Shown here: positions 5,406-21,772 of the stretch, piece by piece | Position numbering within the stretch: position 1 is the first letter of the stretch | Layout: every line of letters begins with the position of its first letter | Virus record (IMG/VR): IMGVR_UViG_3300030419_001378 | Span: 1-26,792 of that record | Origin: a virus | DNA length: 26,792 bases | Reading direction: 5' to 3' (one strand) | Program-made: the position numbers and the translations under genes | The notes under the pieces: model-generated | The model's input: only the letters and a program-made list of their open reading frames with translations | Told to the model about the DNA's origin: nothing | Databases searched by the model: none

Positions 5406-6072
5406 TTTGCAAGCACTGGTGCAATTCGTAGAGAACGCTAGTGCAAAAATGGCTAGTCAGGATGAGCAGATTAAGGCTCTGGAAAACAGACTTACTCAAG
5501 CTACCGCAGAGCCAGAATATGAACCACGTGAGACAGTACCACAAGTATCGGAAGAGGATATAGAAAGTATGTCAAACGGACAGTTACTAAACCTTATGGA
5601 ACAGCGGTTTAATGCTAGCCTTAACAATACGCTAGGTGATGCGCTTAAGCCAGTTCGTGAAGGTATGCAGAATCAACAGCAGTTAAATATTGACAATCAA
5701 GTACAGTCAGAGATTGCAGGATTGCAGAAGCAGTATAGCGACTTTAACCATTTTGCAAATAAAGCTGCTGACCTTGTTGAGCAACGTAACCAAGCAGGTT
5801 TTAAGCTGAGTATTGAAGATGCTTACAAACTTGCTAAGGCTGAAAACCCCGATATGGTAAATGAGTTTAAAGACTCACAGCCCAAGCCTACTCTGGCTGG
5901 TGGCTTATTGCCTACTTCCAGGCTGATAGGACAACCTAGTTCCGGAAGCAACGACCTTGATTTTGACCAAGCCGCTGAGCGTGCTTTTCAAGAGGAGGTT
6001 GTAAACGAGGGACTCTCAGGTTTATTTAGTACAGAAGATTCAACCTCACATTCACCGCCCTTAAAGGAGTAA
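5368..6072 (+). CDS. Capsid scaffold protein (probable)
   Basis: A 234-residue, acidic, Gln/Glu/Ala-rich helical protein directly upstream of the coat gene, the standard place for a scaffold that guides procapsid assembly and then leaves. Residues 1-45 are Gln-rich and heptad-like (QEEQQSQQVDLQALVQFVEN, MASQDEQIKALENRLTQ), followed by a disordered Pro/Glu segment, a second long helical region (QQLNIDNQVQSEIAGLQKQY) and an acidic C-terminal helix (DLDFDQAAERAFQEEV). This plan matches podovirus scaffolds. AGGAG at 5357-5361 lies six bases before the ATG. No protease motif is visible, so nothing suggests it is a fused maturation protease. Identification rests on position, size and composition rather than a sequence signature. 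Confidence 0.75.
   Translation: MAEQEEQQSQQVDLQALVQFVENASAKMASQDEQIKALENRLTQATAEPEYEPRETVPQVSEEDIESMSNGQLLNLMEQRFNASLNNTLGDALKPVREGMQNQQQLNIDNQVQSEIAGLQKQYSDFNHFANKAADLVEQRNQAGFKLSIEDAYKLAKAENPDMVNEFKDSQPKPTLAGGLLPTSRLIGQPSSGSNDLDFDQAAERAFQEEVVNEGLSGLFSTEDSTSHSPPLKE
6063..6069 (+). promoter_or_regulatory. Strong ribosome-binding site of the coat gene
   Basis: AAAGGAG, six bases before ATG 6076. This is one of the few canonical Shine-Dalgarno sequences in a region where most genes start inside the previous stop codon, consistent with the very high output needed for coat protein. Confidence 0.8.
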
Positions 6073-9516: not shown

Positions 9517-9681
9517 ATGCCTAAACACGCTACTATAAAAGAAATTGATGGTCAATGGCACGTTATTGGCAAATCAGGTCAATTTGCTGGTAAGACTGTA
9601 GTAATCCGAGATACTGAGCAAGAAGCAATTAATTGGGCAAAAAAGCGTGATGATAAATGGCGAGAGCTTGGTAGGTGGTAA
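9517..9681 (+). CDS. Small hypothetical protein (54 residues), DUF2188-like
   Basis: A short gene filling the gap between the collar fibre and the next gene. The product reads MPKHATIKEIDGQWHVIGKS and continues with QFAGKTVVIRDTEQEAINWA before a basic C-terminal helix ending in LGRW. A strand-strand-helix plan with 'dGqWhV' and 'teqeAinwA' is similar to the small DUF2188-type fold, but that is a tentative match. It begins one base after the collar stop and ends in TAATG with the next ATG, so both junctions favour a real gene. Confidence 0.65.
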   Translation: MPKHATIKEIDGQWHVIGKSGQFAGKTVVIRDTEQEAINWAKKRDDKWRELGRW

Positions 9682-9947
9682 TGCAAAACCTAGATGTTAA
9701 TAGGGGTAAGCTGCTACCACGTAGAGAGCAGTTTGCAGATGATAGTACATACAATGAGATAGTGCGAATTTGTGATGCTTACGAGGAAAGGTTTAAAGAC
9801 TTGTTTAACTACATGGATAGACTGTGTGCGCCTAGTTACACAACAACCGAGCGTGACGCATTGACTGCGGTTAATGGTATGATGGTGTATAACACTACTA
9901 CTAGTAAGTTTCAAGTGTACGAAAACGGAGGATGGCGAGATGCCTGA
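9681..9947 (+). CDS. Small tail-associated protein
   Basis: An 88-residue protein. The first half is helical and charged (NEIVRICDAYEERFKDLFNY). The second half is a well-known phage tail module: SYTTTERDALTAVNGMMVYN followed by TTTSKFQVYENGGWRDA, which occurs at the ends of tail fibres and tail-needle-like proteins. ATG 9681 overlaps the previous stop in TAATG; a GTG two codons earlier is less likely. The gene overlaps the next by 8 nt. It is probably a small tail or head-closure component carrying a fibre-type tip; its exact task is unknown. Confidence 0.68.
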   Translation: MQNLDVNRGKLLPRREQFADDSTYNEIVRICDAYEERFKDLFNYMDRLCAPSYTTTERDALTAVNGMMVYNTTTSKFQVYENGGWRDA

Positions 9948-12108
9948 GCCTAACAAAACATCGTTTGAGTACAAGCACCTGCAAGAGTTTACGGGTGGTA
10001 TCCGTAAAGATATGCGTAGTGATACTATTCCAGACAATGCACTTGTAGCAGGGCATAACGTATCTATTAGGCAGGGTGTTATTGCAGCAGATAAAGGTTT
10101 TTCTAGGTTTATGCAAGCAGTTCGTGGCACACCTCAGCTTATCGAAAACATCCAGTATCCTAACGGCACTACGGATATGGTACTGGTTACTACGGACACT
10201 GTGTACGAACGGCTCTCGGGTGAGTGGGCGTATGCTGTAGATGCTGGTGATGGCACGGGTACAGTTAATACTAGCACAATTAGCGCAGATGTAGCTAGTG
10301 GTGACGTTATTTCTATACCAGCAGCTGATGTTGGTAAGTTTTCGCAAGGTGACCATGTTGGTATTAGGTACAAAGTGCAAAATGCTAAGACTATCACAGG
10401 CACTACCAAAGGAAGCACTACTACGTATACGCTATCTGCTGCAGATGGTGGTATTTTTAACGTAGACGATACTGTGTATGTCTCTGGTATGAGTCCTACT
10501 GATTACAATGTAGAACAAACTATTACGTCTGTAAGTACCGCAAGTAATGTGACTACTATTGTGACTGGTTTAAACTCGTCGGGTTTTGGTAGTCCAGGTG
10601 GTAGTCCCAAGATGGAAAAGACTTACACTACAAAAGAGTTCCATACTACTATTGCAAGTATAGCTGGATCGGGTGATCCAAGGAATATTACTCTAGCTGC
10701 TGATCTTCCTGGCAGAGTTATTAAAGGTGCTAGGTTTGTTAAGGCACACGTACTTAATGGTGTGACAACCCAAGCTGTAGACTCTGTTATAGTACCTGGG
10801 TTCACTCCACAGATTAGCTCTACAGGGCCAGTTAATGCAACCAAAGCTGGTGCTATAGTTTATACTAATGGTGTGGATATACCAAAAGTAATCTGTAGTG
10901 GTGCGGGTGGGGTGACTGTTCGGGACTTGTATAAAAGTAATATACATGACCTTGGTACTACTAGCACTGTTAGTGCCTTTACCGCTAGAACAGTTAGCTT
11001 GTTTAATGGCAAGTTGATGTTTGCCAACACTAATGAAGGAACTGCCAAGACGTTTATAAACAGAGTGCGGTTGTCGCAGATAGATGACTTTGAGGACTTT
11101 CGTGCAGCACAGGGTGGTGAAATAGTCGAGTTGGTAGAAGGTTCTACTGGCATAGCAGCTATGGAGCCTATGTCAGACTTTGTTGTTGTCTACAAAGAGG
11201 ATGTTATCTATCGTGGTGACTGGATTGGTAGCCCAAATGTATCTGTGCGGTTTACAGCTACTGTCCAAACCGAGGGTACAGTCGGCACTAACGCAGTAGC
11301 TCCATTGCCAGGCTACCATTACTTTGTTGGCAAACGTAATATTTACAAGTATGATGGTGGTAAACAGCTACAGCCTATTGGTGATCCTATTCGGTCAGAG
11401 TTGTATACTATTAATCGTAGTTTAAATATAGCCAATCAGCACTATGTGTTTGCTTTCTTCGACCCAGAGAATCGTGAGCTTAACGTGGTTTACCCAAAAG
11501 GTATGACCGAGGGCGCTAGAGAGTCTTTGCGATACTACGAGCCTTACCAATCTTGGAGTACGCGTACATATAATAACTGGTTTACTTACGGCAAGGCTTT
11601 GCGGTCGCACCAAACACTTACTTGGGCTAACTTACGGCAAAACTGGCAAGCTTATACCCAACCATGGACTACTGCATTTTTTGTAGCTGCTAAGTACCAC
11701 AAGTTTTTGCTAGGCAACGGCAAGTATGTTAATGTCAGTGCTATTAAAACGTCCATTGAGGACACTGACTTGTTTGTCTACGATGTAAACGAGGTTAAAA
11801 ACACAGATGATGGGTACTCAGTCCGTTGGGAAGTTGAGACAAAGGACTTTTACCTGCCTAACTCGTTTATCCGTGTAGACTTTGCTGACGTTTATTGTGC
11901 TGGTGACGATGTTGCTATGCACTTTAGTGATGATCTTGGTGTTACCTTTAGGCGAGTTCGACAAACTGAGCCTAGAGACTTGCTAGAGTCTGAGAGACTT
12001 TACATGAACAAAGCTGGTAAACAGATGAGGTTTAGATTTCGTGGACAAAGCACAAACTTTCAGCTAGGCTGGATGGGCTTTTCTTTTGCACCTGAATTTT
12101 CATGGTAA
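9940..12108 (+). CDS. Tail nozzle / packaged-DNA stabilisation protein
   Basis: A 722-residue protein that resembles the gp10-type stabilisation and nozzle proteins of podoviruses, which close the portal-adaptor channel. Features: N-terminal motif DTIPDNALVAGHNVSIRQGV, a sequence common near the start of these proteins (the 'gg(i)..dxxp.neal.l.Nv.vrqG' pattern); a beta-rich insert at residues 90-220 with many Gly/Thr/Ser; then a propeller-like section with repeated FNGKLMFAN, SDFVVVYKEDVIYRGDWIGS, GYHYFVGKRNIYKYDGGKQL, followed by YVFAFFDPENRELNVVYP. The C-terminal region is beta-rich (VRWEVETKDFYLPNSFIRVD, MRFRFRGQSTNFQLGWMGFS). Size and order match. The C-terminal 'GWMGFSFAPEFSW' is also typical. 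T7 gp12-like naming would be equally possible. Confidence 0.75.
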   Translation: MPEPNKTSFEYKHLQEFTGGIRKDMRSDTIPDNALVAGHNVSIRQGVIAADKGFSRFMQAVRGTPQLIENIQYPNGTTDMVLVTTDTVYERLSGEWAYAVDAGDGTGTVNTSTISADVASGDVISIPAADVGKFSQGDHVGIRYKVQNAKTITGTTKGSTTTYTLSAADGGIFNVDDTVYVSGMSPTDYNVEQTITSVSTASNVTTIVTGLNSSGFGSPGGSPKMEKTYTTKEFHTTIASIAGSGDPRNITLAADLPGRVIKGARFVKAHVLNGVTTQAVDSVIVPGFTPQISSTGPVNATKAGAIVYTNGVDIPKVICSGAGGVTVRDLYKSNIHDLGTTSTVSAFTARTVSLFNGKLMFANTNEGTAKTFINRVRLSQIDDFEDFRAAQGGEIVELVEGSTGIAAMEPMSDFVVVYKEDVIYRGDWIGSPNVSVRFTATVQTEGTVGTNAVAPLPGYHYFVGKRNIYKYDGGKQLQPIGDPIRSELYTINRSLNIANQHYVFAFFDPENRELNVVYPKGMTEGARESLRYYEPYQSWSTRTYNNWFTYGKALRSHQTLTWANLRQNWQAYTQPWTTAFFVAAKYHKFLLGNGKYVNVSAIKTSIEDTDLFVYDVNEVKNTDDGYSVRWEVETKDFYLPNSFIRVDFADVYCAGDDVAMHFSDDLGVTFRRVRQTEPRDLLESERLYMNKAGKQMRFRFRGQSTNFQLGWMGFSFAPEFSW

Positions 12109-12109
12109 T

Positions 12110-13618
12110 ATGGAAGCATTTAATATAGAACATAAGATACTAAACAAACAGCCTAAGCATATTGCGTACATAATTGATACTCTTAGTGGTGCTGTTGATA
12201 GTCTCAAGGGTATTGTTATGGGGACTGAGGGTAGCACAACAAAGGATGTAGGGCAACTTACTAGCAAAGAACAGCAAGAGGCACTAAATAAAGCCTTAAC
12301 ACAAGCTGGTAAGTTTACGCCTAGGGAAACAGCAGCTTACAAAAGTGGGACTGTGCTAGACCAAAATGCCCTAAAATACAGTGCTCCTAATGCTATGCTA
12401 ACTGGTGATAAAGTTACTAATGTTGGCTATGGTGGAGTTAACCAAGAGGGTGTTTCTATAGCTGGCTTAGACAGACTAACGTCAGCAGATCCCAGTGCTA
12501 GATTGGCAGGTGTAGCTAGCAAGTTAGAAGCAGAGGCAGGTGCTGGCCAAGGATTTCGAGCTGAGATGGATGCTTCCATTAAAGATGCCTACAAGACACT
12601 AGCTGAAACAAGGATAGCTGGTAAACGTGGCTTAAGTGGTGCAGGTGGTAGATACGCTAGTGCTACAGAAGAGATGGATGCCCAGGCGTACGAGCAGTTT
12701 GGTGCAAGTGTTGGTAATGCTATTCAGCAGAATAAGGAAAAGTCATTTATGCAAAGGCAACAGCTTACCTTAGAGGCTCTTAAAGGTGCTGGTGATGTAA
12801 CTACTAAGGGGTTGAGTCTTGAGACAGATGCAGCTACAGCTGCTGCTAACATTGAGCTAGCTGCATACTCTAAAGCGGCCGACGTAGGATTAAGTAATGT
12901 AACTAACTTGATACAAGGCTTAGGTACTATAGATGCAAACTCTATTACTAATGCTCAGAATCAAGTACAAGCTGCATTGCAGGCTGGTACGCTGACAGTA
13001 CAAGAAGCTGACAACTTAAACAATCTTATATTACAAAGAGATGCTCAGTACAATCAGTCTGTCCAGCAAAATCTGCAGACCATGATTTCTGGTGGCACAG
13101 CACAGACGCAAGAGAATATAGTCACACAGGATGCTGGGTCTGAAGGTCTGTTAGGTCCGATGGCCAGTGCTGCTACTAGCGTTGCAACTGCTAAAGTGAT
13201 GACCGCTACTTGTATGCCAGGCACTACCGAGATTGATACTTGGGACGGTGATAAGGCTATCGAGGATATAGAAGTAGGTGATAAGGTTATTGGCTATAAT
13301 GGTTTAGAGGCCGTAGTGTTACAGAAACACCAGTACATGAACCCCGAGTGGCGTAAGGTTTACACAGTCACATTTAAGAATGGTGCTCAAATAGAGGTAT
13401 GTGATAATCATAAGATCATGGGCGTACCTATTAAAGACTTGAAAGAAAGTGAGTTTGCTGATTCTGTAGAATCCTTGACTTACCGCACTGGTGTTGATGT
13501 GACTTACGATATACTTACAAGTTCGTTTAATGGTGGCTACCGTATACAAGGTGTAGAAGTTAATAGTATGATACCTGAGATGGTTACTGAAGCAATTAAA
13601 CTCCAAGAAGCAGCATAA
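12110..13618 (+). CDS. Probable internal/ejection virion protein with C-terminal Hint (intein-like) domain
   Basis: A 502-residue fusion. Residues about 1-360 are helical, rich in Ala, Gln and Thr (LTSKEQQEALNKALTQAGKF, GVASKLEAEAGAGQGF, EKSFMQRQQLTLEALKG, LQTMISGGTAQTQEN), as in proteins stored in the capsid and ejected with DNA; with the next two genes it makes a three-protein set comparable in order to T7 gp14, gp15 and gp16. At residue 368 a Hint domain begins (CMPGTTEIDTWDGDKAIEDI) and runs to N485, followed by S486 and a 16-residue tail. ATG 12110 is chosen, two bases after the previous stop; the upstream TTG at 12086 is unlikely. Its stop shares the TAATG with the next gene. The Hint call is good; function of the N-terminal part is inferred from position. 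Confidence 0.72.
   Translation: MEAFNIEHKILNKQPKHIAYIIDTLSGAVDSLKGIVMGTEGSTTKDVGQLTSKEQQEALNKALTQAGKFTPRETAAYKSGTVLDQNALKYSAPNAMLTGDKVTNVGYGGVNQEGVSIAGLDRLTSADPSARLAGVASKLEAEAGAGQGFRAEMDASIKDAYKTLAETRIAGKRGLSGAGGRYASATEEMDAQAYEQFGASVGNAIQQNKEKSFMQRQQLTLEALKGAGDVTTKGLSLETDAATAAANIELAAYSKAADVGLSNVTNLIQGLGTIDANSITNAQNQVQAALQAGTLTVQEADNLNNLILQRDAQYNQSVQQNLQTMISGGTAQTQENIVTQDAGSEGLLGPMASAATSVATAKVMTATCMPGTTEIDTWDGDKAIEDIEVGDKVIGYNGLEAVVLQKHQYMNPEWRKVYTVTFKNGAQIEVCDNHKIMGVPIKDLKESEFADSVESLTYRTGVDVTYDILTSSFNGGYRIQGVEVNSMIPEMVTEAIKLQEAA
13211..13564 (+). other. Hint/intein-like domain within the 502-residue virion protein
   Basis: A 118-codon segment, C368 to N485. Block A-like start C-MPGTTEIDTWDGDKAIEDI followed by VGDKVIGYNG; block B-like TFKNGAQIEVCDNH, in which the usual TxxH is CxxH with the His kept; block F/G-like DVTYDILTSSF and GYRIQGVEVN, followed by Ser. 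The first-position Cys, block B His and terminal Asn-Ser pair are present; the usual His before the Asn is Val. At this size it has no homing endonuclease domain. This is compatible with a bacterial-intein-like (BIL) element or a self-cleaving Hint module. Whether it splices, cleaves or is inactive cannot be read from sequence. Confidence 0.8.
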
Positions 13619-16600
13619 TGGCAACTGTAATATACAAAGAGCGCAGGAAAAACCAACTAGGTAGCGCACTTCAGCAAGCTAGTGAAGCTATTGCTAAGAG
13701 TATGTATGCGCAGAAAGAGCGTGAGTTCCAGCAAGAGCAGCAAGAGGATAGACAAAAGCACCAGTTTGACTACCTTAAAAAGCAGTCTGAGCTAAATCTT
13801 GCTAACACAATGACTGCCAATAGGTACAAGCAGAATGTCAAAAACATCCAGAATACAAGAGATGGTTTAGTATACGACTTTTTTGCTACGCATACTGAGC
13901 AGGGCAAGTACGGGCCAAAACTCAGTGCTAAAAGTGCTACAGAGTGGGCTAAGGTTAGTGCTCCGCTTATGGCAGGTGCTAGTAACGATGCTAGAAAGTT
14001 TGCAGAAAATAGACTTGGTGAGTTTGACAAAACACTTCAGACTGAGAATATTGTAGCTGGTAATGTCAGGGCCTTTACTGCAGCAGGTGGTCCTGAAAAC
14101 CTCAAGTACATGATTAACGAGAACCCTGAGAGCGTTAAAGCCACACTAGACTTATACTTTGGTAAAGATGGTATGCTTTCCAGAGGTGTCGATGAAGTGT
14201 TGGCTATGGTTGAGTTAGGTCATATACCTTTTGAAACACTCAGGGATAGTAGTACCGCAGGTAGTATGCAGTTTAAGCACGCTACTGCAAATGCAGCTGG
14301 TGGTGTCGGTGTACCTATGGCAGCTATAGTAAAAGACGATAGGTTTAAAGACCTTGCTAACTTGCATAGATGGTATAGTGGGAAGTTGTCGGGTATAGAT
14401 CGTCAATTAATAACTGCTGAAGGTGAGGAGAAGGCAGATCAAGAGCAACTCCGTAGTATCTATGTTGGTATGCAGAGCATGAGTATGCCAAAAGAGCTTA
14501 CCGAGGGGATTATTAAAGAGTACAAAGACGGCAAAACTCAGGAAGACCTTGCTAGGTTTTTCAAGCTCAAGGCTAATAATGATTACATACCAGAGACACT
14601 AAGGGATAAGCTAGCTAGGACCGAAACAGGTAGGCAACTTGTAGATACCTACATTGAAAAGCAGGCTAAAGACAACCAGTTAATTGCTGATGCTGGTGAT
14701 CTGGCTGAGTTAAAAGAAAAGTTTCTGAACGTGGACTACGAGCCAGAGTCTGATCCGTTGTATCTTAGGGTAAAGCAACATAGTGGTGCACAGAACTATT
14801 TGGCTACTTCTGCTATGGCTAAGATTCTGATGTCTGAAAGTGACTTGTTTAATAGCGAGATAGCTCCGATGTTTGCTAGTGCTGAGAACCCAAATGAAGC
14901 ATTTATGGCTTATGCTATGCAAGAGTTTGCGGGGCCAGGAGGTGCAGACTTACTCAGAAAGACTTACGAAGACAAGTTTAACCAGACTGTTGCTGGTAAG
15001 TTGATGAAGATTGTTGAGAACCAGTTGGTAGGTAAGGAAGCAGATCCAGACGATTGGAACATCATCCAAGGTGTTTATGCTAACAGATCCCTTTCGCAGT
15101 ATATGCCAGTCGTTAAAGACATTATGGCACGGGCGCAAGACCCTTTTAAGACTATTACAGTTGGTGACACTTCAATAACTGCCAAGCAGTCTAACTTGCC
15201 TGCGTTGATTGAGGCTAATGTTAAACTAGGTAAGTTTACTGCAGATGAGTTAAGCAGGAATGCTGCTGTGATTTTGACGATGGATGCTATGGGTCAGCTT
15301 GACCTGACACCAGCAGAGCGTGATAGTAAGATGCAGTTGCTAAAAGGTGAGGCTCTGGGTTCAGTCACTAAGCTGTATCAAGATGGTGCTGCTAGGCAGT
15401 TGGCTATTGGTGAAGGTCGGGCCAAGGGGCTGATTACTGATGAAGAGATTAGGCTGGGTATGTTTAACATGGCTGATCCTAACTCAGTGATAGAGACTAT
15501 CAAGAGTAGGCAACAAAAGCAACAAGGTGAGTCAGACCAAGCTGTGTTTAATATGCCTGTTTCAGGGCCTTTGAGTAAGATGCAACAGGCTACACTTGCT
15601 TTGGCTAGTCCTGATGTGCAGAAAGCATTCTGGGAGAAACGTACTGGTGTTGAGGCCATACTAGAGCAACGCAGGTATGATGACTACCTTGTGGATCGTG
15701 AAAACACAGAGCGTCTTAACGTGCTTACTAGCTTGCGACTTGTCAACCCAGCGGTAAAACAAAATAATACGTTTTTACTTGCGCTGTCTAAGAACAAAGA
15801 GTTGGCTGGTAAGTTCGTTTCAGAAGCACTGCAAGAGCAGACCGAGGCAGGCACATCCTTTGCGCTAAAGACTAAGACCAAGTACCAGCAGATGTTGCTG
15901 AAAGATACTGTAGAAAACTTCTATGCGGTGACAGGCACGACTCAGTTGGACTTGACTCCGAGCACTTCTCCTACTGGTGAGTTTGTAGTTACTAATAACG
16001 CTACCAACAAAGCGTTGACACCTAACCAGCTAGACTCTTTAGGTGAACTTACCTCGCAGGTTATGTCACGGCAAAACTGGATAGATGCGCACCAAGGTTT
16101 GATCCGTGGCCAAGGTGGTGCAATAGTTGATAAAAATACTATGTGGACAGGTACTGCAAGGGATACAAATACTGTAGTAGCTGGGCTGTCCCAAGAGATG
16201 TGGAATACTGCGTTGCAAGAAGGTATGATACCGGATTGGAGTGCTATCTTAACTCAGTCTAACCAGATTGCTTTGCAGGTTATGAGTTCGTTAAAAGGTG
16301 GTAACATTAGTAAGTTTTCACAGGTAATAGAAAACCCTAAGTATGAAGAGGCAATACGGGCATCGAAACAATATGTGCTAGAGTCGGCTCCCTTTGTTCG
16401 GCATGGTATTAAATATTCTGAAAATGCTACGTTTATACCCGACTCTATTAGAGCACCTGACCTTGACAAAACTATACAACAACGTGTAGATTTTGCATCC
16501 AAAGCACCAGTAAATAAAGTATTGGTTCAGCACAAGGATTTATATAATAAGCTGTTTGACTCTGAAGATCCTGGTGTAGTTATAGGTAAAATGATTAACT

Positions 16601-16950
16601 ACGACGTAGGTGAGGAGTTCGATCCTAATATGGCTATAATGCTAATAGATGGATTGCAAGACATGGTAAAAGGTGTAGATGAGCAGAGTGACCAAAAGTA
16701 CCAAAGCAGTGTGCAGAATGGATTTAACCTTGGTATGTTTGGCACAGGTTTAAGCTATGCAGCTCAGAATGGCACTATCAACCCTAACGCACCTTTACGA
16801 GCAAGTCGCTCTACTTGGAATGACGCAATACGTGCAAAGTGGGAAGAGATTGTAACTACTGGCAGTAACACTAGGGAGCATGACAACGAGCTAAAATACC
16901 TGCTTCATGCTACACAGGAACTTGCTAAAAAAGCAATGAATAATGGCTGA
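13618..16950 (+). CDS. Large internal virion (ejection) protein, 1110 residues
   Basis: A long, mainly helical protein without recognisable enzyme motifs. Residues 1-80 form a basic, Gln/Glu-rich coiled-coil-like start (RKNQLGSALQQASEAIAKSM, EREFQQEQQEDRQKHQF). The rest alternates amphipathic helices and loops, with segments such as PKELTEGIIKEYKDGKTQED and MGQLDLTPAERDSKMQLL; there is no signal peptide or convincing transmembrane stretch. The middle position in a run of three long genes after the nozzle gene, and the size, match the second of the three core proteins in T7-like phages (gp15 analogue), which form a transperiplasmic tube. No lysozyme or transglycosylase signature was found. It starts in TAATG with the Hint-containing gene and overlaps the next start by 8 nt. 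Confidence 0.68.
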   Translation: MATVIYKERRKNQLGSALQQASEAIAKSMYAQKEREFQQEQQEDRQKHQFDYLKKQSELNLANTMTANRYKQNVKNIQNTRDGLVYDFFATHTEQGKYGPKLSAKSATEWAKVSAPLMAGASNDARKFAENRLGEFDKTLQTENIVAGNVRAFTAAGGPENLKYMINENPESVKATLDLYFGKDGMLSRGVDEVLAMVELGHIPFETLRDSSTAGSMQFKHATANAAGGVGVPMAAIVKDDRFKDLANLHRWYSGKLSGIDRQLITAEGEEKADQEQLRSIYVGMQSMSMPKELTEGIIKEYKDGKTQEDLARFFKLKANNDYIPETLRDKLARTETGRQLVDTYIEKQAKDNQLIADAGDLAELKEKFLNVDYEPESDPLYLRVKQHSGAQNYLATSAMAKILMSESDLFNSEIAPMFASAENPNEAFMAYAMQEFAGPGGADLLRKTYEDKFNQTVAGKLMKIVENQLVGKEADPDDWNIIQGVYANRSLSQYMPVVKDIMARAQDPFKTITVGDTSITAKQSNLPALIEANVKLGKFTADELSRNAAVILTMDAMGQLDLTPAERDSKMQLLKGEALGSVTKLYQDGAARQLAIGEGRAKGLITDEEIRLGMFNMADPNSVIETIKSRQQKQQGESDQAVFNMPVSGPLSKMQQATLALASPDVQKAFWEKRTGVEAILEQRRYDDYLVDRENTERLNVLTSLRLVNPAVKQNNTFLLALSKNKELAGKFVSEALQEQTEAGTSFALKTKTKYQQMLLKDTVENFYAVTGTTQLDLTPSTSPTGEFVVTNNATNKALTPNQLDSLGELTSQVMSRQNWIDAHQGLIRGQGGAIVDKNTMWTGTARDTNTVVAGLSQEMWNTALQEGMIPDWSAILTQSNQIALQVMSSLKGGNISKFSQVIENPKYEEAIRASKQYVLESAPFVRHGIKYSENATFIPDSIRAPDLDKTIQQRVDFASKAPVNKVLVQHKDLYNKLFDSEDPGVVIGKMINYDVGEEFDPNMAIMLIDGLQDMVKGVDEQSDQKYQSSVQNGFNLGMFGTGLSYAAQNGTINPNAPLRASRSTWNDAIRAKWEEIVTTGSNTREHDNELKYLLHATQELAKKAMNNG

Positions 16951-19900
16951 TACTAGAGAGTTATTACTTAATTATAAAAAAGCAAAGCCAGTAAGTCAGT
17001 ATCCTACTACTGATCCTGGGTCTAAGGCCAGTCCAGCTACGTTGCTAGGTACGTATAAGGACAATGGCAAGAGTGATGCTTGGGATCGGGATGGTTGGAA
17101 GGTTACGCTAGGTCCACTAGGTGAAGCTGTGTCTGTCATACAAAATGCTGTTTATGATCCTGTGCATAACTACATAGCTGGTGCGATGGCTAACTCAAAC
17201 CAACTTACTGCGGGTGCTACTTTGCTAGCTGCTGACTTAGGCGAGATGATGGGTTTGTCTACGGATGGTATGCGTAACTTTGCAGCTAGTTTGACAAACT
17301 ACAGTAAAAAGAGTTTGCAACCATACGGCACAGATGTCGAGTCCATGGGCCACTTCGGTGCTGACTTGGGTGATAGAGTCATGTATCAGCTTGGGCATTA
17401 CACACCTGGAATATTTGGTGCTATGTCAGCTGGCCAGATGATGATGCCGTTAGCTAGTGTCAATGCTTTAAGCCGTGTAGCTATCCCAATGTTCGGAACT
17501 AACATTACTGCACCACAGGTAATGAACATGACTGGCCGGACTTTAGGTGGTAACTTAGTGACTGTACTTGATGAGTACGGACAGGCATTTGAAGAAGGTC
17601 GTGACCCACAATTGCTAGAAGCTGTTAAGCAAGACTTTATGTTTAATCTTGCGTTTGGCACTACATTTGAGTTTGTGCGAGCTATGAATCTGCCACCTAA
17701 GATTTCGGCTAGTCTGGCTCCCGCTATTGGCATGGGCATAGTCGGTGCTAGTGGTGCTCCAGCAGAGGATGTCATTGCTACTGGTATATTGTTTGCTCTC
17801 GGCCAGATGGGTCACATTAGAGCAGCAGGTCCTAACGATGGGCCTACTCAGCAATCCGCTTTACGTGTGCTAGATGGCAACATAAGAGAATGGTATCGAG
17901 CAAGGCAAAAGGCAGGGTTGTCAACCACGGCTAAAGACTACATCAGAGAGTTTTATCCAGTAGATTACAAGCGTGTTTATGAGCCTACTGGCACGGATGC
18001 TGTTATACAAGAGTTAGAGTCCATAAACCAAAGTGTCCAAAGTCCCTGGGATGCGTACATAATGCAACTAGAGGATACGTTTGACCTGGAGTTAGCAGGT
18101 ATTACTCCACAAAACTTGCCTGCTCAGTTGTATGCTACCCTTGCTGAGATGCAGGAACTTCGTGGTATGAAGCGAGGGGAGTTTGTTAAGTATTGGAGTG
18201 GCATGACTGATGCCATTGTGCAGGAAAACAACAAGTTTATGGAGGCCAATCCTGACTATGTTGGACTACGAGATTACGATCCAAACAATCGCTACTTAGA
18301 CAATGTAGGTGATCTGCCAGCTAGGGAAGTAACTCTGCTGAAAGAGCTTGAGCCAGGAGCAACGTATTTTTACAAGGACAAGAAAGGGTACATAGGTTAT
18401 ACTATGGTTCCACATCCCAAGACCAAAGGGATGAAAAAGAAGATGCTCAAGTTAGAAGACTTAACTTTGCAAGAGGCCGTAGCATTGCTGGGTGGAGAGA
18501 ATGTTTCAGATCCTGCATTAACTGGGTTGCTTGAGGGTGACAGCACGTATGAGAACATACGTATGAAGCACATGGATGCAGTATCCCAAAAGCTGGCCCG
18601 TGGTGTTCGTGTGCCTAAAGAGATCCTTAAAGAGTACAAAGACACCCTTGGCAAAAGGCCAGAAGTAGCTGCTTTGTATGCTAAAGCTATCCCGCTTAGG
18701 AAGACATTTGAGACCAGGGCAGAAGGTAGCGATGTTATGCAGAAAGCCGAGGATCGCAGGTTTGAGCATGACAAGCAACTCGAGTTAGAGCGCAAGACAC
18801 GAGGCACGTCTTTGTGGGAAACGTTGTATGCTGGTGTAGTTGACTCATTTGGGTTTACAGAGGGCAGGCTACGCAAGGAAGGATTTCATGATGTAGCTGA
18901 TGCTATCAATCTTAGGTACGGAGCTACGTCCAAAACCCACTTGGCTTGGAACACACTAGACAAAGCCATTGGCATTAAGGATTGGAGTCCAGAGTATACT
19001 AATGCGTTTAGCGACTTCTACGATGCAGTAGTACAGAAAGCATTTAAACAGCGTAAAGCTGCTAGGCAAGCTCCGTTTAAAACCAGCATGGCTCAGGATG
19101 AGTTGTTGCTGTTGGCGGATGGTATACTAAAGAAAGCTGACAATGGTGAGATCCCTGGGTTTACTGGTGGATCTAAGGTAATGCTTGAGCATTTTCATAC
19201 AGTTAAAAAGCTGTTTGACGATACCCTGGACTATGCTTACGAGCATGGCATGGTTACTGACAAAGTGTATAAGGAGGTTCAGGGATTTGCGTACGCTCCA
19301 CAGAAAATGGTACGTGCGATGCTTAGGGCCACGGGTGGTGGCACACCTAGAATGATCGATGCTAACAAGAATATACTTGACAGGTTGTCTAAGGAGATAG
19401 ACGCTAAAGGCAGGTTAATTGATATGCCTTTTTTAATACAAGCTCACTTGGCTCGTGTCAACAGTGCTGTAGCTACTAACAGAGTAGCCATGGCAATGGG
19501 TAAGTATGCTGATGAAAACGTCAAGACCAACACGTTTAGCAGAGTACAAGAACAGCCTGACTGGTTGCCTATTGAGTATTTCGAGGATGGTAAACGCAAG
19601 CGAGTGTTTGTAGAGCCAAAGACTGCTATGATGGTAGAGCAGGGATTGTTGCAGAACGCAGCTGACCAGACATCCGACGTTGGACTACGCAGGTTTGTTG
19701 CATGGGCTAGTGGTGCTAACCTAGATAGATTGCTGATTTCTAGTAGTCCAGTGTTTGCACTTACTCAGATCATGCCTGACTTTTTGCATATTGTAACTAG
19801 CCACCCTGAGTTTCATCCGTCTCCAGCAGCAGTAGGAAAGCTATCTGCGTACACAAGTGTATATCGTACTGGCTTAAAGTTCTTTAAGGGTGACAAAGAG

Positions 19901-21772
19901 AATGGTGTAAGCTCATTTGCCAGCAATGTCAAGGCCGTGAAGACACTAGGCCCAGAGTATGAAGAGTTTATTAAAGTAGGTGGTAGTGCTGTCACTTTGG
20001 CAAACAATGCAGCTATACAAGACTTGCTTGATCGTAGTGTCAGGGGCCGAACAGGGTGGGAAACACCTGACCAACTTGCTGGCATAGCAGAACCTGCTAA
20101 ACGGCTGACTAATGTGACGATGAAGAATACCATTAGTGCATTTCAGGCTATGGCAGAATACTCGCACGCTATGGAGATGGGTGGCAGGCTTACTGAGTAC
20201 CAACTGCTCAAGGCTAATGGCATGACACCAGAGCAGGCAGCTGCTTCTGTAAATGCAAGACTAAACTACTCAAAGGCTGGGTTGTGGACTAAGCAGTTAA
20301 AGTCATTTGTGCCGTTCTTGGTGCCAGGTATTAGTGCCACAGATACTACTGTAAAGTTTGTTGTGCAGGATTATAAGCAAACAGGTGGCAAGCGTACTGG
20401 CAGGATTATGTCTCAGCTTGCTTTGGGGTACGGAGCTATGCGTGCAATTAATGAGCAAGTGGCTCCAGGCGCAGAGCAAGATCGTAGCATGGAAGATAGG
20501 ATCTATACAAGTCTTATGTTTATTGGTGAAAAAGATCGTGATCCGCACACAGGAGAAGTACGGCATTATGGCATACGGGTTAAGGATGCTATGAACCCTA
20601 TTGCAGCTACGGCAAAGTACATTACCTTGATGACACAGGATTATTACTACGACAAGATGGCTGGTAGAGAGCCTACTATATATACAGAAGCGCAGATTAG
20701 TGATGTTGTGGACTTAATAATAGCATCTACCCCTGCCGAGCTACAGTCATACGTACCTAGTGCTGGTGACATTTTTGCGATTTATATGGGCAACACAAAG
20801 CGTATGGCATTTAATGCTGGCAAAGTTTACCTTGGTGAGCCTACCACACCTGAAAGAGAAAAGAATGACATCTTAACTAAGTCAGAGCGTGGGTATGGTA
20901 ATGTAACTGAGCCTGCATTTGAAGTTGCTGGTGAGTTTGTTGGTGATATGAACTCTGCTATCTTTGGAGAAGGTCGAGGTGCAAGTTTTTTAGCATCACC
21001 TGCTCGTATGCAAGCTGCTGTAAATGCGTACTTTGCTAGTAGCACAACAACTGATACTGTAAGGGCATTGCCTAAGTTGTTTGGGTGGACTAACGATGAA
21101 CCTCAATCCTTGATTCATACTTTTGCTAAGGATGTGCCAGCTATCAATAAGTTCTTAGGGTATACTACACCTAACATAGCTATGCGTGATAGGATGTATA
21201 AGGTAGATAGAATCTCTAAGCGTAACTTTGACAGGGCAATCGAAGACAAGATCCGACCTGCTAAGATTGATATGTTAAAAGAGATGAAGCTCCCAGATAT
21301 TCGTAGCACCAAAGAACTGTTTAAAACTACGGACATACTTACAAAGGGTATTGCCAAGCTAAATGGGTATAATTGGGAAGGTAAAGAGAACTTACGATCA
21401 GAAGCAGTTAAGAGGTTGACTAACTATCATAGTAGTTTGGTAACATACTGGCAGATGGACAAGACTATTAAGGATATTGCCAAAGCTAGTAAGGTTGAAA
21501 TGATGGATGCGTACTCAGTTATAGGTCCGTGGAAGGTTTGGCGTAACATATTTGATGGTGATAAACTACCAGAAGATAGAGGGCAGTTGCTGTACGAACG
21601 ATGGTTACAGCTGTACGCTACTCAAGACGATTGGGATATGACCAAGAAGGGTTGGACTAAAGTATCCAACTTGTTTAACACACTCGCTACCCAGGCAGGC
21701 TCGTTTGATGGTAGCGCGTATTTAGAGTTTGATAAACTCAGGAAAAACTTTATTAAAAGGAAGTCAAAATGA
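16943..21772 (+). CDS. Very large internal virion (ejection) protein, 1609 residues
   Basis: The largest gene in the window; probably the third ejection protein. It is mainly helical. Residues about 155-185 and 253-289 are Gly/Ala/Met-rich and hydrophobic (GIFGAMSAGQMMMPLASVNA; LAPAIGMGIVGASGAPAED, GILFALGQMG) and could insert in a membrane during DNA entry. Residues 570-640 are charged coiled coil. In the C-terminal half, LLISSSPVFALTQIMPDF and, near residue 1108, NARLNYSKAGLWTKQLK resemble the large polyvalent protein-associated domains found in giant phage proteins. I see no transglycosylase or peptidase motif, although gp16-type proteins often carry one. Starts with an 8-nt overlap and ends in an ATGA with the first fibre-type gene. 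Length is above the 1300 of T7 gp16. Confidence 0.7.
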   Translation: MADTRELLLNYKKAKPVSQYPTTDPGSKASPATLLGTYKDNGKSDAWDRDGWKVTLGPLGEAVSVIQNAVYDPVHNYIAGAMANSNQLTAGATLLAADLGEMMGLSTDGMRNFAASLTNYSKKSLQPYGTDVESMGHFGADLGDRVMYQLGHYTPGIFGAMSAGQMMMPLASVNALSRVAIPMFGTNITAPQVMNMTGRTLGGNLVTVLDEYGQAFEEGRDPQLLEAVKQDFMFNLAFGTTFEFVRAMNLPPKISASLAPAIGMGIVGASGAPAEDVIATGILFALGQMGHIRAAGPNDGPTQQSALRVLDGNIREWYRARQKAGLSTTAKDYIREFYPVDYKRVYEPTGTDAVIQELESINQSVQSPWDAYIMQLEDTFDLELAGITPQNLPAQLYATLAEMQELRGMKRGEFVKYWSGMTDAIVQENNKFMEANPDYVGLRDYDPNNRYLDNVGDLPAREVTLLKELEPGATYFYKDKKGYIGYTMVPHPKTKGMKKKMLKLEDLTLQEAVALLGGENVSDPALTGLLEGDSTYENIRMKHMDAVSQKLARGVRVPKEILKEYKDTLGKRPEVAALYAKAIPLRKTFETRAEGSDVMQKAEDRRFEHDKQLELERKTRGTSLWETLYAGVVDSFGFTEGRLRKEGFHDVADAINLRYGATSKTHLAWNTLDKAIGIKDWSPEYTNAFSDFYDAVVQKAFKQRKAARQAPFKTSMAQDELLLLADGILKKADNGEIPGFTGGSKVMLEHFHTVKKLFDDTLDYAYEHGMVTDKVYKEVQGFAYAPQKMVRAMLRATGGGTPRMIDANKNILDRLSKEIDAKGRLIDMPFLIQAHLARVNSAVATNRVAMAMGKYADENVKTNTFSRVQEQPDWLPIEYFEDGKRKRVFVEPKTAMMVEQGLLQNAADQTSDVGLRRFVAWASGANLDRLLISSSPVFALTQIMPDFLHIVTSHPEFHPSPAAVGKLSAYTSVYRTGLKFFKGDKENGVSSFASNVKAVKTLGPEYEEFIKVGGSAVTLANNAAIQDLLDRSVRGRTGWETPDQLAGIAEPAKRLTNVTMKNTISAFQAMAEYSHAMEMGGRLTEYQLLKANGMTPEQAAASVNARLNYSKAGLWTKQLKSFVPFLVPGISATDTTVKFVVQDYKQTGGKRTGRIMSQLALGYGAMRAINEQVAPGAEQDRSMEDRIYTSLMFIGEKDRDPHTGEVRHYGIRVKDAMNPIAATAKYITLMTQDYYYDKMAGREPTIYTEAQISDVVDLIIASTPAELQSYVPSAGDIFAIYMGNTKRMAFNAGKVYLGEPTTPEREKNDILTKSERGYGNVTEPAFEVAGEFVGDMNSAIFGEGRGASFLASPARMQAAVNAYFASSTTTDTVRALPKLFGWTNDEPQSLIHTFAKDVPAINKFLGYTTPNIAMRDRMYKVDRISKRNFDRAIEDKIRPAKIDMLKEMKLPDIRSTKELFKTTDILTKGIAKLNGYNWEGKENLRSEAVKRLTNYHSSLVTYWQMDKTIKDIAKASKVEMMDAYSVIGPWKVWRNIFDGDKLPEDRGQLLYERWLQLYATQDDWDMTKKGWTKVSNLFNTLATQAGSFDGSAYLEFDKLRKNFIKRKSK
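21755..21763 (+). promoter_or_regulatory. Ribosome-binding site opening the fibre region
   Basis: AAAAGGAAG, five bases before ATG 21769, inside the end of the 1609-residue gene. It lets the first fibre-type gene be made independently of the very long upstream gene. Confidence 0.6.

Follow-up and report, generated by a model that had tools for sequence, protein, structure and literature searches.

A Hint domain in a phage is usually taken for an intein, a parasite of an enzyme of replication or packaging. The window analysed here, a whole stretch of 26,792 nucleotides of viral DNA (IMG/VR record IMGVR_UViG_3300030419_001378), raises the question of what such a domain does at the C-terminal end of a virion protein, where the original prediction had placed one. 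The gene (P0001) encodes 502 amino acids from an ATG at positions 12110–13618 on the plus strand, which also carries all genes and protein features of the window given below; an alternative start at a TTG (12086) is possible. An N-terminal ejection-protein-like part (residues 1–367; 12110–13210) is followed by the Hint domain (residues 368–485; 13211–13564). Upstream lies the gene for a 722-amino acid virion structural protein (9940–12108; match to PHROG 3287). Downstream, proteins of 1110 (13618–16950) and 1609 amino acids (16943–21772) occupy gp15-like and gp16-like slots, based on the open reading frame list and gene order.

The predicted Hint domain proved real, and the residues originally assigned to it (C368, a 118-residue block, CxxH, V484 ahead of N485, a 17-residue tail) were correctly placed. 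The profile search proposed at that stage gave weak, consistent Hint and intein matches. Pfam Hint (PF01079) matched with an E-value of 2.8e-5, under the curated cut-off, and the match to NCBIfam TIGR01445 (intein_Nterm; E 1.6e-4, just under the cut-off) started exactly at residue 368. In profile–profile alignments, a profile of 69 relatives aligned to inteins over its full length, and C368 fell on C1 and C431-x-x-H434 on TxxH of HN-ending inteins. The AlphaFold model, made with a 69-sequence alignment, had a pLDDT >90 across most of the Hint domain, with one helix just ahead of C368 (residues 350–365, including K362; 13157–13204) and another right past N485-S486 (residues 488–501; 13571–13612). 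The best PDB matches of this model in Foldseek were mini-inteins and BIL domains, with Hedgehog further down. The domain has the predicted beta fold, block A Cys/Ser and block B His of the Hint superfamily, and its Hint signal is not due to chance. Matches to helicase and terminase families in PHROGs were discarded, as they corresponded to the intein parts of those families.

The assignment to an ejection protein is upheld by gene order. Podovirus ejection genes have been described in the order gp14-gp15-gp16, and in T7 ejection starts with gp14, a protein that is insoluble by itself and makes a pore in the outer membrane (PMC8954989). P0001 occupies the position of a T7 gp14-type protein, ahead of the gp15- and gp16-like genes. 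In the window and in almost every phage locus that had enough sequence, two larger genes, encoding approximately 430–1110 and 570–1610 amino acids, came after the Hint gene. Since P0001 had no sequence or profile match to an ejection protein, the label rests on gene position, and P0001 is probably an ejection protein.

IMG/VR was scanned for the C-terminal motif G-Y/F-x3-G-V/I-x-V-N-S-M-I with a degenerate DNA pattern, and all 40 stretches recovered encoded C-terminal Hint domains (40/40). Each consisted of a long, often Ala/Gln-rich protein, a Cys-initial Hint domain of approximately 120 residues and, past the motif, a tail of 9–31 residues; the N-terminal parts of the phage carriers fell into several mutually unrelated groups. 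Throughout the family the domain was at the extreme C-terminus (tail usually 4–35 residues, 96 in L079) and never inserted, as an intein is, inside an otherwise whole host protein. Among 50,697 records of cultured phages, two family Hint queries found no member at E 1e-3. P0001 itself matched one ordinary helicase intein only (E 3e-3), and its Hint domain alone, at E up to 10, essentially returned inteins and other generic Hint proteins. The first viral matches (L003–L012) were rejected as generic Hint or intein proteins, not relatives. Three of these (L006, L008 and L010, near position 6001) have a VHN-ending Hint domain flanked by Gly-rich stretches, close to the N-terminus of proteins of 2061–2073 amino acids, and are probably ordinary inteins. 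The ‘hint domain protein’ of Vibrio phage 1.266.O (L011:3167-5290), encoded between terminase/portal-region genes and the capsid gene, is unrelated to the P0001 family.

Conservation was evaluated for 91 distinct members (92 rows, one being a second copy of the window). C1, D376, H434, D467, T470 and S486 were exceptionless wherever the residue was present, and the search patterns had not demanded C1, the block B His or the block F Asp. The conserved segments of P0001 are the block A nucleophile C368 (13211–13213), block B, C431-x-x-H434 (13400–13411), block F, Y466-D467-I-L-T470 (13505–13519), and the conserved domain end, N485-S486-M487-I488-x-E490-M491 (13562–13582; N485 codon 13562–13564). 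H407 (13328–13330) was conserved, with Cys in nine phage rows, and the block B Thr position held Cys in 80 rows, Ser in 10 and Gly in one. Conservation outside the catalytic set included Lys at −5, Phe at −2, Q405, Y409, GYR and SMIxEM. The Lys, found in every cell member and in 31 of 40 phage rows, is K362 in P0001, 5–6 residues ahead of C1. P0001 was the most divergent member; no other branch in the tree was as long as its own (1.76). Two loci (L014:4338-4790 and L025:2539-2991) were identical in DNA except from block B to the stop codon, the second half of the domain, where identity was approximately 71%, a pattern resembling the exchange of half a domain.

Homologous virion proteins differed in what they carried at the C-terminus. 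Phage L001 was 94.6% identical to the window in DNA over 9679–12172; the similarity stopped abruptly 63 bases into the P0001 gene, with none detected past the sharp, recombination-like breakpoint (12172–12174). Its homologue of P0001, traced across residues 1–364 with 34% identity over residues 1–357, stops where the Hint domain would start. A comparison of homologues with and without the domain, suggested alongside the original prediction, thus yielded one that ends before it. A viral scan with the N-terminal part of P0001 or L001 recovered L001 alone. Among 30 homologues of the L018-type virion protein, six carried the Hint domain, eight a Peptidase_S74-like domain, and the rest mostly no recognisable module. 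All eight S74-like domains (L173, L176, L179, L182, L187, L192, L196 and L198) had the catalytic Ser and a Lys at +5 (all SK), corresponding to the self-cleaving dyad formed by S911/K916 of endoNF and S587/K592 of MyRF (PMC8326128). Their PF13884 matches were weak: one, at full length, narrowly exceeded the cut-off, and some missed E 0.01. The proteins that end in these domains are probable ejection proteins, not tail spikes, and one carrier from this other group, L179, matched PHROG 4287 ‘DNA ejection protein’ (E 1.4e-4). The N-termini of the S74-bearing proteins were not detectably homologous to P0001, which counts against the comparison, and P0001 itself had neither a PF13884 match nor a Ser-Lys dyad. 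An 819-residue L018-type form (L184:6001-8457) had a weak S74-like stretch followed by a long extra C-terminal part. In another group (L206, L209), the same slot held a third, Cys-containing C-terminal module, CWVAREVYGxxxPxW, shared with gp25 of Puniceispirillum phage HMO-2011 (L213) and without a significant Pfam or PHROG match.

The family was also found in bacterial chromosomes. Scanning one genome for each bacterial and archaeal species with a profile-derived pattern gave 43 loci, 42 in Verrucomicrobiota MAGs and one on a phage-like contig in an alphaproteobacterial MAG. The Verrucomicrobiota genes (stand-alone Hint lipoproteins L073–L161, e.g., L086:5947-6420) mostly encoded approximately 190 residues, with a signal peptide, a lipobox-type Cys, a spacer and the family Hint domain, which AlphaFold modelled for one member with a pLDDT of 92–98 through most of its length. 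The lipobox Cys was 14–35 residues ahead of C1, mostly 18, 22 or 26. A strict lipobox pattern fitted 40 of 50 sequences, and the misses listed had GC or SC there, apart from L104, whose stretch had been delimited wrongly. A prophage origin was ruled out at the sampled loci, where the gene was single copy (6/6 genomes checked) and its neighbours were core metabolic genes. The lipoprotein is patchy in the phylum, not universal, because a phylum-wide draw had a true member in only one of 289 genomes; in one family it was present in approximately 28 of 75 genomes, in another in 4 of 68. One predicted secreted Verrucomicrobiota protein (L125, open reading frame from about 1330) had two tandem Hint domains, each HN-K-G-ending.

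We lean towards the hypothesis that the Hint domain serves as a C-terminal autoprocessing module, dedicated and swappable, that cuts itself off at C368, without splicing and without cleavage at N485. Self-cleavage at C368 is the best and most economical reading, since C1, the block B His and the block F Asp are invariant, the slot, in one homologous set of virion proteins, holds a Hint domain, an S74-like domain with its dyad or nothing recognisable, and L001, nearly identical just upstream, ends where the Hint would begin. It is further supported by the structural neighbours of the domain (inteins, BIL and Hedgehog), with C1 and TxxH in register, and by its constant C-terminal position ahead of a short tail (L079 excepted). 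The absence of splicing is supported by block G being out of register and by the lack of a match of P0001 to the NCBIfam intein C-terminal model. The domain would fold at the C-terminus of the ejection protein, and C368, aided by H434 and C431, would attack the T367-C368 peptide bond. The resulting thioester would be hydrolysed or otherwise resolved, freeing the ejection protein, with T367 as its new end, from the Hint domain and short tail. The domain would thereby take the role that the self-cleaving Peptidase_S74 chaperone has on other virion proteins of the slot, possibly by capping a hydrophobic C-terminus until removal or by aiding its assembly. We infer that the cleavage occurs, and likewise its timing and purpose; fold, family, conservation, position and the alternation with S74 or no domain are direct observations.

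Such a reaction would resemble the B-type BIL half of the intein reaction. B-type BIL domains have N-terminal cleavage motifs and lack the intein-type C-terminal motif (PMC7765530), which, together with the fold and the rank of BIL structure 2lwy among the best Foldseek matches, makes them similar to the P0001 family. Unlike them, this family is strictly at the extreme C-terminus, has its own conserved end (YDLLTxxxGYRxxGxPVNSMIxEM) and is found on phage ejection proteins and lipoproteins, whereas B-type BIL domains occur in hypervariable bacterial proteins. The mini-inteins MchDnaB-1, Msm DnaB and gp41-1 share the fold and blocks A, B and F, but the P0001 family lacks their terminal HN, has Cys/Ser for the Thr of TxxH, has only a short conserved tail as C-extein and is never in an enzyme active site. 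Peptidase_S74 domains (endosialidase intramolecular chaperones), which self-cleave in characterised members, share the C-terminal slot in one group of homologous virion proteins, although their fold and Ser-Lys chemistry are unrelated to Hint.

A less probable alternative, which nevertheless deserves serious consideration, is a non-cleaving structural or binding domain. The Hint fold would have been retained for interaction, such as keeping the ejection protein soluble at its hydrophobic end or providing contact with the next core protein, and its residues for folding or for metal or disulfide binding. Conserved residues do reach past the catalytic set; the Lys at −5, Phe at −2 and SMIxEM suggest binding work beyond bare cleavage. 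The alternation of His and Cys at position 407 and of Cys and Ser at position 431 could suit a metal or redox site, and a redox switch is possible because C1 and C431 would both sit in the active site. Catalytic conservation could also reflect a retained thioester or disulfide site. On the other hand, the C1-His-Asp set is exceptionless in phages and bacteria alike, on proteins whose N-termini are unrelated, and relatives have an established self-cleaving domain in the slot.

It is also conceivable, but rather doubtful, that the T367 thioester is transferred to a nucleophile, on the host envelope or on another virion protein, as in Hedgehog, anchoring the ejection protein covalently; in Verrucomicrobia, a short lipopeptide would be anchored. 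Both carriers are predicted to be envelope-located, the lipobox Cys lies close ahead of C1, and the outer membrane is where T7 gp14 ends up (PMC8954989). Hedgehog (1at0) and the bacterial secreted C-terminal Hint proteins (PMC2362128) resemble the family in Cys1, the block B His and the presence of a processing domain at the C-terminus of a secreted or envelope protein. Hedgehog Asp303, which is required for the transfer step (PMC4695875), is 26 residues ahead of His329, and H407 is 27 ahead of the block B His; the Asp303 position thus seems to be His or Cys in this family, a match by spacing and not by structural alignment. However, Hedgehog belongs to a different sequence family, its sterol or adduct recognition region is absent here, where only a short tail follows the Hint domain, and no acceptor is known. 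We hold out little expectation of a system common to phages and bacteria in which the C-terminus of an ejection protein or lipid-anchored peptide is transferred to an envelope nucleophile.

The original prediction corresponds to a version in which N485 cyclises, freeing a 17-residue peptide or permitting alternative splicing (A-type BIL-like), and the pair N485-S486 is nearly invariant. This is very unlikely, and here the prediction did not hold. V-N485-S486-M487 aligned gaplessly to V-H-N-(+1) of inteins in the profile–profile alignment, which puts N485 at the penultimate His, one position off, and S486 at the terminal Asn. P0001 lacks a terminal Asn after His followed by Cys/Ser/Thr, as well as the C-terminal His-Asn motif of A-type BIL domains. 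The SMIxEM segment past N485 is as conserved as the core and leads into the predicted helix, as expected of a part of the domain and not of a released peptide. The first two family searches favoured VNSMI; routes with less bias (a whole-profile genome search, the block F pattern and searches with N-terminal virion parts) found NSMIE in 35 of 35 genome loci. The only phage exceptions were three (D485 in L164, V488 in L172, M488/D490 in L204), and in L164 Asp replaces the Asn that would cyclise. The register, the Asp member and the conserved helix make splicing or C-terminal cleavage unlikely, and the earlier preference for cleavage over splicing appears justified. A degenerate intein relic stranded in a C-terminus, for which the long branch of P0001 might speak, is hardly credible for a family that retains its catalytic residues and is always C-terminal, on unrelated proteins.

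The original prediction thus stands as to a Hint domain, its competent-looking first Cys and its place on a probable ejection protein, but not as to its N485-S486 pair, and it had missed the family, its sharing with Verrucomicrobia lipoproteins and its exchange with Peptidase_S74 domains. Within the limits of the open-access literature, no description of this Hint family was found, and it is apparently undescribed: its fold and chemistry are known, whereas the clade itself, the motif at its end, the proteins that carry it and the exchange with S74 domains seem to be new. In Verrucomicrobiota, a family of chromosomally encoded Hint lipoproteins has been brought to light, and the domain is a small candidate tool for generating thioesters. 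One Hint clade appears to have been recruited as a functional C-terminal module of a protein thought to build the envelope DNA-entry channel, and in one homologous group it alternates with an unrelated self-cleaving chaperone. If this is true, autoproteolytic maturation of podovirus ejection proteins would be a general and testable idea.
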